Made by a program: the position numbers and the translations under genes
In this document: positions 2,514 to 62,777 of the stretch, one piece after another
How the letters are laid out: each line of letters begins with the position of its first letter
How positions within the stretch are numbered: position 1 is the stretch's first letter
NCBI RefSeq assembly: GCF_013179285.1
Contig: NZ_WVNW01000001.1
Location: forward strand, 496,001 to 560,000
Origin: Roseobacter sp. HKCCD6576-2
Lineage (GTDB): Bacteria > Pseudomonadota > Alphaproteobacteria > Rhodobacterales > Rhodobacteraceae
Reading direction: 5' to 3'
DNA length: 64,000 nt
Notes under the pieces: generated by a model
Seen by the model: only the letters and a program-made list of their open reading frames with translations
Databases searched by the model: none
Told to the model about the DNA's origin: nothing

Positions 2514-3512
2514 TCATGAGTTGATGATCCGTTCCAAAAGGTCTTGCGGCACGCTCACCCCATCCGCCTCTGTGCGCGCCCGGGCTGCCGCTCGGGTGCT
2601 GCCGGGAAGCCGCGCGCCGTCTTGGTCCGCGATCGCGGCTGCCAAGTCTTCGATTCGTGCACCAAAAGCGCCGCCAGACAGCGCGCCTGTCTCAACGGCG
2701 ATGAAGCATTGCCCGGTGCGCGGCGGTCCACCCAACGGGCCCGAGAAGGGGGAGGCGTCTTTGCCCAAAGTTGCCCCGGCCAACGCCGCCGCGAAGACCT
2801 CAACCATCAAACCGGCACCAAACCCCTTATATCCGCCGGCCGGTGCCATCGATCCCTTGAGAGCCGCCTCGGCATCTGTCGTCGGCGCACCGGTGGCATC
2901 AAACGCCCAACCCTCTTCGATGGCGCGTCCTTCTCGGGCGCGCAGCATGATCTCAGATTTCGCGATTGCGCTGGCTGATTGGTCGATGACAAGCGTTGCC
3001 CCGCCCGCGCCATCCGGCACGCCAAGCGCGAACGGGTTGGTGCCGACGACCGGTGTTTTGCCGCCCCAGGGCGCAATCGACGCTGGCGCATTGGTGAAAC
3101 AGAGGCCCAACAATCCAGCGTCGGCGATCCGCTCTGCGTGATGGCCCAGAACGCCACAATTGTAACTGTTATGAACCGTCATCGCGGCGATGCCTTGGGT
3201 CGTCGCGGCCTCGATCAGGGTATCGAAGCCAGCATCGATCGCCGGATGTGCAAAGCCATCTTTTGCATCGACCCTCACAGCACTGGGCTTGGGGCGGTGG
3301 ACCTCTGGTTCGGCCAAGCCCTCCACTTTGCCGCAGCGCAGATGTTCCGCATAAATCGGCACATACATCAATCCGTGACTGCGGATACCGTCGCGCTCAG
3401 CAGCGCGGGTCGAGCGCGCGACGGAGGCCGCCGCCCGATCGCTGGCACCTGCACGTTTCAACGCATCGCGCGCAAGCGCCTCCACATCGTCTAGGCCGAG
3501 GATTTCATTCAT
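2514..3512 (-). CDS. Ldh2/malate-L-lactate dehydrogenase family oxidoreductase
   Basis: A 332-aa NAD(P)-dependent 2-hydroxyacid/imino-acid dehydrogenase of the Ldh2 (MDH2) fold, which is unrelated to classical LDH. Family landmarks are RSHGLMYVPIYAEHLR near residue 45, the VHNSYNCGVLGHHAERIA segment near 115, GTNPFALGVP near 160 and GGYKGFG near 240. Known substrates of relatives include malate, sulfolactate, ureidoglycolate and delta-1-piperideine-2-carboxylate; nothing here chooses among them. The ATG at 3512 is preferred, with AAAGAATGG upstream; an in-frame ATG at 3527 is possible. It lies 22 bp downstream of the DUF3726 gene on the same strand, so it is most likely part of that operon. 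Confidence 0.88.
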   Translation of the reverse strand: MNEILGLDDVEALARDALKRAGASDRAAASVARSTRAAERDGIRSHGLMYVPIYAEHLRCGKVEGLAEPEVHRPKPSAVRVDAKDGFAHPAIDAGFDTLIEAATTQGIAAMTVHNSYNCGVLGHHAERIADAGLLGLCFTNAPASIAPWGGKTPVVGTNPFALGVPDGAGGATLVIDQSASAIAKSEIMLRAREGRAIEEGWAFDATGAPTTDAEAALKGSMAPAGGYKGFGAGLMVEVFAAALAGATLGKDASPFSGPLGGPPRTGQCFIAVETGALSGGAFGARIEDLAAAIADQDGARLPGSTRAAARARTEADGVSVPQDLLERIINS

Positions 3513-3534
3513 AAGCCATTCTTTCATCAGGGGG

Positions 3535-4149
3535 TCAGTCAGCGTCAATCCCATCTGCACCTGCCCCGCGGGTGCGTGAGGTCTCTGTGGTGGGAACACG
3601 CGTTTTTGCCGCGAAGCTTTCGGCCTCAGTCCAGGCCGTGGCGCCGGGCGTTTGGCGGCCCAAGCCAGGTGGGTGTTGCGCCATACCGGGTTGCAGCGTG
3701 ATCAAAATGTCACGGCGGGCGGGGTCGTTATGCGGTGCCCCCAACAAATGCCCGGCGTCAATTTGTGCTGCGATTGCCCCGTCCAGTGTGATCCGCTGTT
3801 CGGTTTGGGTGGAGGCCCACCCGGCAAACCCCAAAAAGAGAGCTGGGCTATCGTCCAGGGTCATACAAACGGGGCCATCACCTGTGAGTGCAAGGTCAAG
3901 CGCTGACGGTCCGACAAGGGCGACGGGGCCGGGGCCGATGCGCCAGATGTCGTCGCCGTTTTGCCAGGCTTCAACGGGGCTTGGTGCCGATTGCAGCGCG
4001 TCGAGGGCGATGCCGACGCCATTCGCCCCTTGCGCGGATAACCAAGCTGCTGCCGCGCCGATCTCGGCGGCGATCCCTTGCGGCCAACCGGCACCGCGCG
4101 CCGCATCGTGCATCTTTTTGGCCACTTCATTGAGCGATGGTGTGATCAT
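3535..4149 (-). CDS. DUF3726 family protein
   Basis: A 204-aa protein of unknown function. The N-terminus (SLNEVAKKMHDAARGAGWPQG, then AAEIGAAAAWLSAQG) carries the pattern I associate with DUF3726, a family seen in roseobacters and some gammaproteobacteria. There is no signal peptide or membrane helix. The start ATG overlaps the stop of the upstream 566-aa gene by 4 bp (4146-4149), so the two are translationally coupled. The downstream neighbour is the Ldh2-type dehydrogenase. The coupling suggests a joint pathway or complex whose substrate is unknown. Confidence 0.75.
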   Translation of the reverse strand: MITPSLNEVAKKMHDAARGAGWPQGIAAEIGAAAAWLSAQGANGVGIALDALQSAPSPVEAWQNGDDIWRIGPGPVALVGPSALDLALTGDGPVCMTLDDSPALFLGFAGWASTQTEQRITLDGAIAAQIDAGHLLGAPHNDPARRDILITLQPGMAQHPPGLGRQTPGATAWTEAESFAAKTRVPTTETSRTRGAGADGIDAD

Positions 4150-5846
4150 GCGGTGATCGCGCGTGGCGGTGACCAGAGCGCCCAGCCATCTGGATCGACC
4201 TCAGCGATCTCGCCGATCAGAGGCGCACCTTGGCAGAGCGTGATCCGGGTCCAGCGGTCGGATTTTGGATCAAACCGGGTGGCGCCGAAAAACGCGAGTT
4301 TGAAGCGCAGCAGATCAACTGGCAGGCAGGCCTGCCCGATCAGGTTGTCGCGAATCTCTCCATAAGGATGGGTTGCGATGCTCTGCACACGGTCGACCAC
4401 ATGCCGCTGATCCGGGCGGCGCATTAGAAACGCCGCCACGCTATCGGTGGGGTGCGCCTCTCGCAGCGCCCGGTCGAGGCCTTGAACCTGGCGCGCGATG
4501 TCCAGCGGCGTCTCCAATTCCCCGCCCGGTTCTTCAGCCCGAACACCCAGCCTCGGTTCCGCCTTATCTTCAGAGACATACCAGAACTGATGAGTCTCAT
4601 CGGGGTCGTCGAAATCTATCTTCAGGGCCCAGGCATAGGTTTGCCGGATGATCGTTGCGAGCTCGTCTAACCGCATCCGTGGCGACAGTCGTTTGGGAGC
4701 GCCGGTTTGCATCTCCATCGCCAAATCATCGATCAAAGCGCCATAGGGCTCCATCATCACGGCATTTAGGCATTCCTGCGCTTCCAGGCCGTATGCCAGG
4801 GCCTCAAGGCTCAGGTTTTCCCAAGGGTGGGGCGCGTCCAAACATCCGGTTCTCGTCAGATCGCGGATCGCAGACAGATCGCGCCGAAGGCCGTGGATGC
4901 GCGCCATCTGGGTCGGGTCCGCGACATCCCACGTCTCCACATGGGCGATGGCTTGGTCCAGGGCCTGTGCGAATGCCGCTTTGTCCGATGCGCTTGCCGT
5001 TGGCAGGGCGCGTATCCGAGCCAAGGCCGTCTCGCGGGCCAAAACCCAGGCATGGGTTAGCTCGGGATGGGTCGCAAGAAACGGCGCCATGCCAAGGCCG
5101 GTTGCATTGCCAATACCCAAAAGCCGCTTGTTTTCATTCGACAAAGACACGGCCCGTTCTGGTGCCCGGGCCTTGGCGATGTGGTCGACCAAGTCATGTG
5201 TAAAATGCCGGATCAGCCAAACGGTGAGCATCTCGGCTTGAAAGGCGCCGCCAAGCCCCGGGCGCCCGGCAATTTGGGCGCGATCAGCCAAGCCGAATTT
5301 GCCATTGCCATAAACCGCCGTCGTGCGCATGAGATACCCGGTTGCGAACAGCTTTTCGGTGTCCGGCTGCTGGCCGTTGGCCAAGGCATCGACTACATGA
5401 TCAAACAGACGAACGCTTTTGTTAGCGCGGCTAAACACCAACTCTCGCGGCGAGACGCGGCCCGCCTCTTGGAGCGGCACATTGGCTTCCAGCCGATCTA
5501 GATCCCCCCGCGTCGGCAGCCCATCGAACAGCGCATAAGTCGTGTCCCATCGTTCGGCGATAACACGGTCGGTTCGGTCTGCGGTATCCAAGGCGTGAGA
5601 GAAGGCAACCAGCGCATAACTATGCCCGCCCAGGGTCAATGTATAAACGGCCCGACCATATCCTTCGGGCGTCATTTCCCATAACCGTCTGGTCACGCTG
5701 ACTTTGTCTTGATGTAGTCGGCGCATCAAAACACGCAGGAAACTCAGCCGGGTTGGAAAACTTGCCCCCATCCGCGCCAGCCGCATCACCATATCCGGCG
5801 GGCGAAGCACCAGCGTTTTGGGGGGGATATGGGTCAAATCATTCAT
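4146..5846 (-). CDS. 566-aa conserved-type protein of unknown function
   Basis: I do not recognise a named domain. The protein is soluble, with no signal peptide or convincing membrane segment. Regions that look conserved are RANKSVRLFDHVVDAL (141-155), FATGYLMRTTAVYGNGKFGL (167-186) and RLLGIGNATGLGMAPFL (241-257). The last has a glycine-rich GxGNxTGxG pattern that could form a ligand loop. The gene starts with ATG inside the overlap with the remnant dipeptidase frame upstream and ends overlapping the DUF3726 start. Its role is unknown; being coupled to DUF3726 and followed by an Ldh2-type dehydrogenase, a metabolic or assembly role is my inference. Confidence 0.8.
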   Translation of the reverse strand: MNDLTHIPPKTLVLRPPDMVMRLARMGASFPTRLSFLRVLMRRLHQDKVSVTRRLWEMTPEGYGRAVYTLTLGGHSYALVAFSHALDTADRTDRVIAERWDTTYALFDGLPTRGDLDRLEANVPLQEAGRVSPRELVFSRANKSVRLFDHVVDALANGQQPDTEKLFATGYLMRTTAVYGNGKFGLADRAQIAGRPGLGGAFQAEMLTVWLIRHFTHDLVDHIAKARAPERAVSLSNENKRLLGIGNATGLGMAPFLATHPELTHAWVLARETALARIRALPTASASDKAAFAQALDQAIAHVETWDVADPTQMARIHGLRRDLSAIRDLTRTGCLDAPHPWENLSLEALAYGLEAQECLNAVMMEPYGALIDDLAMEMQTGAPKRLSPRMRLDELATIIRQTYAWALKIDFDDPDETHQFWYVSEDKAEPRLGVRAEEPGGELETPLDIARQVQGLDRALREAHPTDSVAAFLMRRPDQRHVVDRVQSIATHPYGEIRDNLIGQACLPVDLLRFKLAFFGATRFDPKSDRWTRITLCQGAPLIGEIAEVDPDGWALWSPPRAITA

Positions 5847-6171
5847 CTGAGTTCGTGAGTGCGCGATAAAACTTGGTCCACTAGGTGTCGCCCATGATGC
5901 CAGTGATTTTGGATTTGTCGAATCCGACAGCGGTCAGACTCTGGCGCCAATATGGAACATCGCGGATGTCCCAGAGAGAGATTGGCCGTTGCAGGACGTC
6001 GCGGGGACCGACCGCGACTTCGTCGGCATCAAAATGGTTTGTCCGGTGCCCGACGCGTATCGGGAGAAGAGGCTCCCCGGGTCTGCGCCCATATTGCGCA
6101 GCATCGATATGGATCATGCGGCCTGCCATCCTGGTTGCAAGTTGGCGGAGTTGAGCAAGAAACCCCGGCGA
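5839..6171 (-). pseudogene. Decayed 3' end of an M19 membrane-dipeptidase-like gene
   Basis: Read on the minus strand from about 6171, one frame gives SPGFLAQLRQLATRMAG, then RVGHRTNHFDADEV, SLTAVGFDKSKITGIMGDT, a TAG stop (5881-5883), and then WTKFYRALTNSDE to a TGA at 5839-5841. This resembles the C-terminus of M19 dipeptidases (PGF...RVG..T, then AVGF...IxGIMGxNW.xFY), as I recall the family. The zinc-site N-terminal two thirds are absent. The post-stop frame ends exactly where the next gene (ATG at 5846) begins, the overlap expected of a once-functional operon gene. Alternative: a real 82-aa ORF starting at 6129 or 6117. Confidence 0.55.
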
Positions 6172-6205
6172 CTGGCAAGCGCAAAGGTGAGGCGCGGGTA
6201 TGCGA

Positions 6206-6249
6206 ATAGGTTACGAAAAAGGCCGCGATGTGGGTCTTTTGTAACCTGT
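6206..6249 (-). repeat. GGTTAC/GTAACC hairpin element, copy 1
   Basis: The core runs from 6209 to 6246 (38 nt). On the minus strand it begins GGTTACAAAA and ends TTTTTCGTAACC, around a 16-nt middle. Copy 2 at 62732-62769 has the same arms and exactly the same core length. Here the flanking pairing is imperfect (ATAGG against CCTGT read on the plus strand). There is no T-run after it on either strand, so it is a poor classical terminator. Confidence 0.55.
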
Positions 6250-6416
6250 GGGGTGATCTCTGTGACCGTTGCAGACCACACCTAAATGGCCACGGCCCTA
6301 TTAAGCTTATGCCGCCAGCAACCATCGCGTCTATTGCCCGGTGTCCTTATGAGGCGCCGGATGTCCACCCCGACGATCGTGCCGGGCCCCGCCGCCCTTC
6401 GCAATGCCCGCCCGAG

Positions 6417-6448
6417 TTCCGCCGTGCACCAAAAAGTGCCCGGCGGAA
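6417..6448. terminator. Strong hairpin downstream of the LysR/OxyR-like gene
   Basis: TTCCGCCG (6417-6424) pairs with CGGCGGAA (6441-6448). After one mismatch GCAC pairs with GTGC around a CAAAAA loop. It lies about 55 bp downstream of the stop at 6502 of the minus-strand regulator. It lacks a T-tract on that strand; on the plus strand it is followed by TTTCCTCTTT. Likely a transcript-end hairpin, but the direction is uncertain. Confidence 0.5.
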
Positions 6449-6501
6449 TTTCCTCTTTGCTTGCCCACCGTGTCGCGGGCTTATGCGGCGCGGCTTGTGG
6501 C

Positions 6502-7440
6502 TTACCCTTCGATCACCAGATCGGGGAACCGACCTGCGGTGTCGCGGATCAACTGCGCCAGCCGCTCATAGGCGCTTGCGGCCCCCGTGGCGGAGCGCCA
6601 GACCAACCCGACGGAGCGCGAGAACCGGCGGCCACGGAATGGTCGGACAACAACATCTTGGGCGCGGTTTTCAATTTCGGATTTGACATAAAGTGTCGGC
6701 AGGAAGGTGACGCCCATCCCCATCGCAACCATCTGACGAAGGGCATCAAGCGAGGTGCCTTCGTAATCCCGTGACAGTGTGGCGCCGGTTTCCAGGCATA
6801 CTGCGGCAATCTGATCATGCAAGGTGTAGCTGGGCGAGAGGGAGAGAATCGTTTGATCCGACAGATCGGGTCCGTCGAGCATCTCTTTCTCTGCCAGTGG
6901 ATGATCAACCGGCAGGGCCACCGACAGCGGCTCGCGGAACAGCCGGGATGTGGTGAGCGCTGCCCCAGATACCGGCAACTGCGTCAGGATCAGATCATGC
7001 ATCCCATCGTTCAACTCACGCAGGAGTTCGCGCGGGGAGGCTTCGCGGATATAAAGCCGAAGGTCGGGATGGCTGCGATGCAGATCGCCGACCACATGCG
7101 GCATCAAATAGGGGCCGAGTGTGGCGGAGGTGCCAAGACGCAAGGTCCCGCCCAGGCCCGATTGCAAGGTCACCGACAGGTCGAGAATCCCTTGAGTCGC
7201 GTCAAGGATATCGCGGGACCGGGACGAGACTTCGCGCCCCGCCAGCGTGAGTCGCACCGGTCCACGACCGCGTTCGACCAGGGTGAGGCCAAGCGCATCT
7301 TCGAGAGTCTTGATCTGCACGGAGAGCGACGGTTGAGAAATACCACAAGATTCAGCGGCTTCGCGGAAATGAGCGGTTTCTTCTAGCGCAACAAGATAGC
7401 GCATCTGGCGCAAAGTAAGCGGTGGCACGGAGACAGGCAT
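6502..7440 (-). CDS. OxyR-like LysR regulator lacking the peroxidatic cysteine (paralogue 1)
   Basis: A 312-aa LysR regulator with an N-terminal winged HTH (residues 10-70; HFREAAESCGISQPSLSVQIKTLE) and the OxyR-type effector domain (YTLHDQIAAVCLETG, then TSLDALRQMVAMGMGVTFLP). In E. coli OxyR, Cys199 and Cys208 form the regulatory disulfide. The Cys208 equivalent is C215 here, but the residue nine before it is T206, so the peroxide-sensing cysteine is missing. It lies 255 bp downstream of, and co-directional with, a second copy (7696-8616). It may sense another ligand or act as a constitutive regulator; naming it oxyR would overstate the evidence. Confidence 0.88.
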   Translation of the reverse strand: MPVSVPPLTLRQMRYLVALEETAHFREAAESCGISQPSLSVQIKTLEDALGLTLVERGRGPVRLTLAGREVSSRSRDILDATQGILDLSVTLQSGLGGTLRLGTSATLGPYLMPHVVGDLHRSHPDLRLYIREASPRELLRELNDGMHDLILTQLPVSGAALTTSRLFREPLSVALPVDHPLAEKEMLDGPDLSDQTILSLSPSYTLHDQIAAVCLETGATLSRDYEGTSLDALRQMVAMGMGVTFLPTLYVKSEIENRAQDVVVRPFRGRRFSRSVGLVWRSATGAASAYERLAQLIRDTAGRFPDLVIEG

Positions 7441-7695: not shown

Positions 7696-8616
7696 TCAGT
7701 CGATAACCGTCACCTCAGGGGCGGCCTCGCGCAATATGCGGCGCAAGATTTGCGCCAGTTCAGCAAATTCCCGGCTGCGGGGCGCGGTTTTGCGCCAGAC
7801 CATACCGATTGAGCGAAACGGCACCGGACCGGCCAGAGGGCGCGATGTCACCAGTGCGTTTTGAGTCACCTCGGACCGGACATAAAGCGCGGGCAGAAGT
7901 GAGATACCAAGCCCCATCGCCACCATTTGCCGGATCGTATCAAGCGACGTCGCCTCATAGTCGAGGCTGAGCTCCGCGCCGGTATCGGCACAAATCTGTT
8001 TCATCTGTTCGTGCAACCTGTGCCCCGGCTCCAGCGTCAGGATCGTCTCGCCGCGCAGGTCTTCCCGGGCAACCTGTGGGCGGTCGGCAAGCGGATGATC
8101 CGTCGCGGTCACCGCCAGAAGCGGCTCGCGAAAGAGCCGCGCGGTGTTCAGATCGGCGCCGGTGACGGGCAGGGGGAAGAACAAGAGATCCAGACGGCCT
8201 TCATCGATGCGCGTCAGCAGGTCGGTGGCCAGTCCCTCACGGACATAGAGCCGCAAATCGGGATGGCTGGCATGCAGATCGGGGATCACCAACGGCAAGA
8301 GATAGGAGCCGAGCGACTGCACGACGCCGACGCGGATCGTGCCGCCAAGCGGGTGTTGGCCCTGTTTCGCGATCTCTTGGATATCCGAGACATCGCGCAG
8401 GATCGCCCGGGCGCGCGCGGCAATCTCCGCCCCGGTCGGGGTCAGCACGACGCGGGCGCGAGAGCGTTCGACCAACTGGATGCCGAGTTTCGCCTCCAAC
8501 TCCTTCAATTGGCCCGAAAGGGTCGGCTGGGTCACATGGGCGCGTTCGGCTGCGCGGCGGAAATGCAGCGTGTCGGCAACGGCGACCAGATAACGAAGCT
8601 GTTGAAGCGTGGGCAT
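7696..8616 (-). CDS. OxyR-like LysR regulator lacking the peroxidatic cysteine (paralogue 2)
   Basis: A 306-aa paralogue of the preceding regulator: HTH at residues 5-65 (HFRRAAERAHVTQPTLSGQLKELE), then an OxyR-type effector domain. The Cys208 equivalent is C209 (MKQICADTG), while the Cys199 position is R200 (GHRLHEQ). Peroxide disulfide chemistry of the E. coli kind is therefore not possible. It is divergent from the UspA-like gene at 8718, with a 29-bp inverted repeat in the shared control region. It probably regulates itself and perhaps the Usp-Mnh genes. Tandem duplication with the same cysteine loss suggests the change predates the duplication. Confidence 0.88.
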   Translation of the reverse strand: MPTLQQLRYLVAVADTLHFRRAAERAHVTQPTLSGQLKELEAKLGIQLVERSRARVVLTPTGAEIAARARAILRDVSDIQEIAKQGQHPLGGTIRVGVVQSLGSYLLPLVIPDLHASHPDLRLYVREGLATDLLTRIDEGRLDLLFFPLPVTGADLNTARLFREPLLAVTATDHPLADRPQVAREDLRGETILTLEPGHRLHEQMKQICADTGAELSLDYEATSLDTIRQMVAMGLGISLLPALYVRSEVTQNALVTSRPLAGPVPFRSIGMVWRKTAPRSREFAELAQILRRILREAAPEVTVID

Positions 8617-62723: not shown

Positions 62724-62777
62724 CGGAGATAGGTTACGAAAAATCGCGAAATACGGGAATTTTGTAACCTATCTCCG
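62724..62777 (-). terminator. metF terminator / GGTTAC-GTAACC hairpin, copy 2
   Basis: CGGAGATAGGTTAC (62724-62737) and GTAACCTATCTCCG (62764-62777) are perfect 14-bp arms starting 3 nt after the metF stop. On the minus strand the stem is followed by TTCTTTTT, so it works as an intrinsic terminator. The 38-nt core matches copy 1 at 6209-6246 in both arms and length. Confidence 0.7.

Follow-up and report, generated by a model that had tools for sequence, protein, structure and literature searches.

A decayed M19-family gene at the head of a constrained operon in Roseobacter sp. HKCCD6576-2, with a short undecayed island in its 3' end

Organization of the locus

The window analysed here is a 64,000-nucleotide stretch of the Roseobacter sp. 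HKCCD6576-2 genome (contig NZ_WVNW01000001.1, positions 496,001 to 560,000). It contains, on its minus strand, three consecutive genes encoding a 566-aa protein, a DUF3726 protein and an Ldh_2-family dehydrogenase, headed by the remnant of an M19-family gene and preceded by a LysR-type regulator. We refer to this genome as G000, to a second genome of the same species as G001, to Boseongicola sp. H5 as H5 (G005) and to a Rhodophyticola MAG as G006. The features of the locus are as follows.

2514..3599, minus strand: Ldh_2-family dehydrogenase, start codon uncertain (PF02615, E 2.9e-93; dN 0.0055, dS 0.103 over 996 bp)
3535..4149, minus strand: DUF3726 protein (PF12525, E 8e-7; dN 0.002, dS 0.081)
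4146..5846, minus strand: 566-aa protein, constrained (dN 0.011, dS 0.111)
5839..5846, minus strand: old M19 stop and 566-aa ATG, overlapping by 8 bp (ATGAATGA here and ATGGATGA in H5, G002 and G006)
5839..6117, minus strand: M19-family gene remnant, from alignment with the intact genes of H5, G002 and G006 and with the G001 remnant, and from neutral dN/dS
5881..5883, minus strand: TAG inside the remnant, also present in G001 with a second TAG directly after it
6118..6165, minus strand: 5' leader of the dead gene, 75% identical over 48 bp to the leaders of H5 and G002 and nearly unchanged between strains
6209..6246, no strand: 38-bp palindrome GGTTAC-N26-GTAACC, a member of a dispersed family
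6502..7440, minus strand: LysR-type regulator before the remnant, kept in the loci of congeners (dN 0, dS 0.143)

The remnant is 279 bp long, running from an ATG at 6117 to a TGA at 5839-5841, and aligns to the intact genes as their first 10 to 12 codons fused in frame to their last ~80 codons. The internal loss of 702 bp is a multiple of three, with its junction at ~6082-6087, and the start is preserved (MIHIDAAQYG from 6117 versus MICIDALQYA in H5). The initial annotation of this locus, which was made from the letters alone, placed the TAG, the TGA, the ATG of the next gene at 5846 and the 8-bp overlap exactly, but had the N-terminal two thirds of the gene cut off at about 6172. The gene has instead kept its own start at 6117 together with its leader, and the loss is internal; the stretch 6118-6171 is 5' leader, so the remnant ends short of 6172. 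The native promoter, too, had been supposed lost, but the leader between the palindrome and the start codon remains. Because this leader aligns with those of congeners and changes little between strains, the native promoter does not appear to have been removed. The stretch from 6250 to the LysR gene is scrambled between G000 and G001. Two more LysR-type genes flank the operon region (7696-8616 and 1533-2498) and have relatives in matching places of the congener loci.

Ancestry of the remnant

The remnant fragment has no match in Pfam or NCBIfam at E<=1. When 2001 six-frame pieces were searched with a subfamily profile made from 100 intact relatives (L117 being left out for its internal stop), just two of them matched at E<=1, the remnants of the window and of G001 (E 2.2e-4 and 2.3e-4, respectively). 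The remnant was also found at E 3.6e-6 in a search of genomes. By blastn, its 3' end aligns over ~85 bp with the intact genes of two congeners (E 1.9e-14). The last 243 nt, compared in register, are 58.4% identical to the intact H5 gene and 58.0% identical to that of G006; the H5 comparison at other offsets gives a mean identity of 26% and a maximum of 36.2%, which places the true register at a z of 10.7.

In three genomes of the same genus, G002, H5 and G006, the place before the 566-aa gene is taken by an intact M19-like gene, which is 981 bp long in H5 and in G002. The intact genes at this place, and the copy found elsewhere in the genome (see below), score 237-247 bits against PF01244, for which the cut-off is 26, with E values of 4e-73 to 2e-70 for the intact genes. 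The M19 ancestry proposed in the initial annotation is thus borne out by the subfamily profile, blastn and in-register identity, although below Pfam thresholds, and its proposal that the decayed gene was once coupled to the 566-aa gene agrees with the intact gene of the congeners and with the adjacency of M19 and 566-aa families across alphaproteobacteria. No print record of this M19 ghost was found in the limited literature searched.

An undecayed island in the 3' end

Identity to the intact genes is concentrated in one block of the remnant, within which lies a promoter-like match.

5889..5933, minus strand: undecayed island, 45 bp, identical to intact H5 at 42/45 positions and to G006 at 41/45
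5894..5921, minus strand: promoter-like match within the island, reading TCGACA-16-CATCAT and having TG ahead of the second hexamer

The other 198 nt of the 3' part are 50.5% identical to H5, and likewise to G006. When the matched positions were shuffled, 0 of 20000 permutations gave such a block, a test that allows for the choice of block; the corresponding binomial probability of 6e-10 is uncorrected for picking the best one. There are no differences between G000 and G001 in the island, and within the remnant ORF the two longest stretches without change, of 70 and 49 nt, both exceed chance (P 0.015 and 0.005). The 45-bp island has therefore escaped decay. The same block is well conserved between the intact genes of H5 and G006 (42/45, versus 79.8% overall), in which third-position identity is highest in the island (0.88, mean 0.56). 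When H5 or G006 is compared with G090, a member of another genus, the island has a third-position identity of 0.69 and is not the top window, values elsewhere reaching 0.81, and in Sulfitobacter it is not conserved (0.44, mean 0.49).

The simplest reading is that the three downstream genes may be transcribed from an internal promoter in the island, older than the loss of the coding sequence. The promoter-like match is a weak one (9/12 to consensus) and is the only one that a simple scan finds in 5700-6520, with 0.3 expected (sd 0.7). It would also be possible, if somewhat unlikely in our judgement, that the island was kept for a reason other than promoter activity, as an operator, as an mRNA element for translation of the 566-aa protein or as a small RNA. 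The conservation seen here would look no different for an operator or mRNA element, and Rfam has no match anywhere in the window; against this stands the occurrence of the promoter-like match exactly in the island and nowhere else in the scanned interval. With the island as a putative promoter, the case resembles pseudogenes with an internal promoter in that constrained genes follow a neutrally evolving coding remnant in which a non-coding island is conserved, and differs from them in that the island falls within the final tenth of the dead gene and overlaps former coding sequence.

Decay of the lead gene and constraint on its neighbours

Between G000 and G001 the remnant has accumulated 26 substitutions in 291 nt, with a dN of 0.097 and a dS of 0.085, the drift being measured from these two genomes of the species. 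Nonsynonymous changes make up a neutral share (19.5 of 25, expected 0.757; binomial P 0.82), and the nonsynonymous to synonymous counts differ from those of five pooled neighbour genes (Fisher 8e-12 on rounded counts; the pool is without the farther LysR gene at 7696-8616, with dN 0.002 and dS 0.203). The G001 remnant lies at the same place and reads TAG TAG where the window has TAG TGG, and none of the M19 catalytic residues is left. With 702 bp missing, a TAG and neutral evolution, the window copy has neither a full-length open frame nor active-site residues and encodes no functional M19 enzyme. The M19 gene died before the two sequenced genomes of the species split, while the three genes downstream of it are under purifying selection.

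The 566-aa protein is not accelerated in the lineage of the ghost: G000 and H5 are 76.6% identical, G000 and G006 74.6%, and H5 and G006 75.7%, and identity to G090 is 66.1% for G000 and 65.2% for H5. These values, and the constraint on the downstream genes and LysR, argue against plain decay, in which the whole pathway is being lost in the species, the remnant is functionless and the island is due to chance. Such a process would account for the neutral dN/dS of the remnant and for the two stops in G001, but chance is a poor source for an island of 42/45 in a background of 50.5% that is identical between strains, and we regard plain decay as quite improbable. Least probable is that the 82-aa ORF is a genuine small gene derived from the M19 gene and encoding a short protein or leader peptide, since its dN/dS is neutral despite the TAG common to both strains and the 70 nt of leader and first 25 codons that are unchanged between them, and the M19 catalytic residues are all gone. 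The initial annotation had named an 82-aa gene with the same stop under purifying selection, kept in relatives, as one finding that would speak against a ghost; the stop is indeed shared with G001, but there is no purifying selection and a second stop follows there.

A second M19 locus

Death of the lead gene has probably not removed M19 activity from the genome, as an intact and constrained relative is present elsewhere. G000 has one intact M19 gene above the PF01244 cut-off, on contig C12, where a BCCT transporter and an aldehyde dehydrogenase are its neighbours; it lies before a second 566-aa relative (49%) and DUF3726. The G001 copy of this M19 is 99% identical to that of G000 (dN 0.004, dS 0.13), and the ghost and this copy are the only M19 matches at E<=0.01 in G001. 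The second-locus M19 is only 68-69% identical to the lost M19, a divergence that leaves room for a difference in activity. No second M19 copy above 31% identity was found in G002, H5 and G006, which have the intact lead gene, and neither M19 nor a 566-aa gene was found in G003 and G004. Judged from its presence, constraint and co-occurrence with the 566-aa family, the second-locus M19 can likely supply the step of the lost gene.

Phylogenetically, the second-locus copies group with G061, G276 and G299 (support 100/100) and the genus copies with G090 (100/99). This separation suggests that two old clusters met in the species and that the M19 gene of one of them then decayed. The second locus also differs between the two strains: ~4.1 kb comprising the BCCT transporter, the second 566-aa gene and DUF3726 (L009:7159-11268 compared with L143) are present in G000 and missing in its conspecific G001, which keeps the aldehyde dehydrogenase region beside the M19 gene. 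The M19 and 566-aa genes of G061 share a strand and are separated by 1.7 kb, as in G000, which favours loss in G001 over insertion in G000. The sole 566-aa gene of G001 is consequently the one behind the ghost, and its two half clusters taken together hold the gene content of one set, which would presumably also function as one.

Co-occurrence of the M19 and 566-aa families

The 566-aa family is present in 176 of the 394 family genomes searched, and M19 at E<=1e-60 accompanies it in 170 of these 176 (79/80, 77/80 and 13/15, plus G000), with M19 identities of 38 to 79%. The remaining six have the 566-aa family without M19 at this threshold, one of them being 84% complete. Among the 218 genomes without the 566-aa family, 20 were tested and one has M19 at E<=1e-60. 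Of 80 named loci, 52 have M19 immediately before the 566-aa gene, 8 have it at a greater distance upstream and 17 have it in some other part of the stretch; the three that lack it are L080 and L097, which are at contig ends (L097 with a partial M19), and L100, which is not. The 52 adjacent pairs include 33 with a 4-bp overlap and two with an 8-bp overlap. The 566-aa alignment is without L068, L077, L080, L112 and L117, whose sequences have terminal or internal stops or come from a short contig.

Separation of the two genes is also seen in other genomes: in G299, G331, G235, G371 and G010 the M19 gene and the best 566-aa gene are far apart or on separate contigs (coordinates, by eye). Eight other loci with no M19 noted just ahead of the 566-aa gene (L030, L019, L026, L033, L017, L031, L100 and L008) were searched for a ghost at that place, and none turned up (best E 0.63). 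Not all eight are true orphans, G321 and G388 having M19 2-4 kb upstream by coordinates, L031 being near a contig end and L008 being the second cluster of G000.

Enzyme class and candidate substrate

Among solved chains, those nearest to the intact M19 genes are 2i5g (E 1.3e-56), which is called an amidohydrolase, and dipeptidases, 3id7 being one. The intact genes share with the renal or membrane dipeptidases of M19 (PF01244) their family homology, the two later histidines and the aspartate, and an alignment of 24 subfamily proteins shows no variation at His151, His172 and Asp241. At the position of the canonical glutamate, which 3id7 has, all 24 carry an invariant glutamine, and an N-terminal HxD is absent. 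The subfamily therefore departs from the canonical two-metal ligand set HxD/E/H/H (and D). The window copy has in addition lost the middle of the gene. Because the canonical Glu is Gln and HxD is absent, dipeptidase activity should not be assumed, and we use the name M19-like hydrolase.

The 566-aa protein gives a confident AlphaFold2 model (mean pLDDT 87.9, pTM 0.90) for which Foldseek returned no match to solved structures at E<=0.001, the best VIA-align Z being 5.3 over 75 residues. Its family has many invariant Arg, Glu and Trp residues, and the protein is possibly an enzyme with an undescribed fold.

Gene neighbourhoods offer a lead to the substrate. Across the 67 named loci that are 12 kb or longer, relatives of an aldehyde dehydrogenase occur in 43, of Ldh2 in 50, of ProX and ProW in 21 each, of a SABATH-type methyltransferase in 20, and of BCCT and a sarcosine-oxidase-type subunit in three each, the families being named from Pfam and NCBIfam. 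The first suggestion, that the pathway began with a peptide-like or amide substrate, is unsupported in view of the missing canonical ligands of the subfamily and the betaine-type transporters of related clusters. A betaine-like N-methylated substrate fits these neighbours better than a peptide, and they would also suit a scheme in which a betaine-like compound is taken up and then oxidized and hydrolysed. SABATH-type carboxyl methyltransferase genes lie beside the 566-aa/M19 cluster at L070:8241-9344, L079:8376-9482 and L101:3733-4854, with a PF03492 match confirmed for L070 and L101, the two tested.

Marine bacteria have a cluster for homarine (N-methylpicolinate) catabolism, a six-gene hom operon. 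The cluster described here, which in marine and soil alphaproteobacteria comprises a LysR regulator and five enzymes together with betaine transporters, seems to match it in make-up, a likeness that gives a lead only. Homarine is our leading guess for the substrate, on account of that operon and of the reported part of Mgd in homarine catabolism (PMC13390433). No mention of 'homABCDER' and no naming of DUF3726 were found in the literature searched.

A lead gene lost from an operon that persists

The ghost itself is of an ordinary kind, a pseudogene heading an operon. Two turns are less ordinary: a second cluster probably provides the enzyme, and the undecayed island may have made the ghost a promoter. 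The conserved catabolic operon has the order LysR, M19-like hydrolase, 566-aa protein, DUF3726 and Ldh2, and its lead gene died in this species through the 702-bp in-frame internal loss and the nonsense codon. This loss was probably tolerated because the intact M19 of the same subfamily in the second cluster, with its aldehyde dehydrogenase, can supply the step, and the 45-bp island in the 3' end of the dead gene may drive the 566-aa, DUF3726 and Ldh2 genes. We consider this account as a whole, with a dead lead gene, selected downstream genes, a compensating second M19 and the island as promoter, to be fairly probable. More tentative, though a serious possibility, is the stronger version in which the dead gene has turned into a promoter of which the island alone was kept, the enzyme comes from the second cluster, and reciprocal loss in G001, of M19 from one cluster and of the 566-aa and DUF3726 genes from the other, has rebuilt one pathway from two half operons.

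The locus is thus a natural case of an operon outliving the death of its first gene, with the partners selected and the activity probably provided from a second locus, and of a putative regulatory island preserved inside dead coding sequence. It also draws attention to a widespread uncharacterised module, consisting of an M19-like hydrolase, the 566-aa protein, DUF3726 and Ldh2, often with an aldehyde dehydrogenase and a betaine transporter, whose 566-aa component occurs in 176 of the 394 family genomes examined and whose substrate is testable.

A dispersed palindrome upstream of the remnant

The 38-bp palindrome at 6209..6246 also occurs ~100 bp before the intact M19 gene in H5 and ~90 bp before it in G090. 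We considered it as the operon's own operator and dropped this idea, as there are 16 copies in the genome and, among 35 sites examined by eye (L167-L201), 27 are within 40 bp of a gene 3' end and 19 lie between convergent genes. A second copy in the window is at 62732-62769. Counts in other genomes are 15 in G001, 5 in G002, 3 in G003, 8 in H5 and 25 in G090, with 0 in the reversed control; G004, G006 and G061 have none, and G299 has one versus two in its control. Two of the 35 sites are inside predicted ORFs, and the TAG in ATAGGTTAC often appears to serve as the stop codon. The four copies of the palindrome that were tested fold as hairpins, with z of -3.1 to -7.9.
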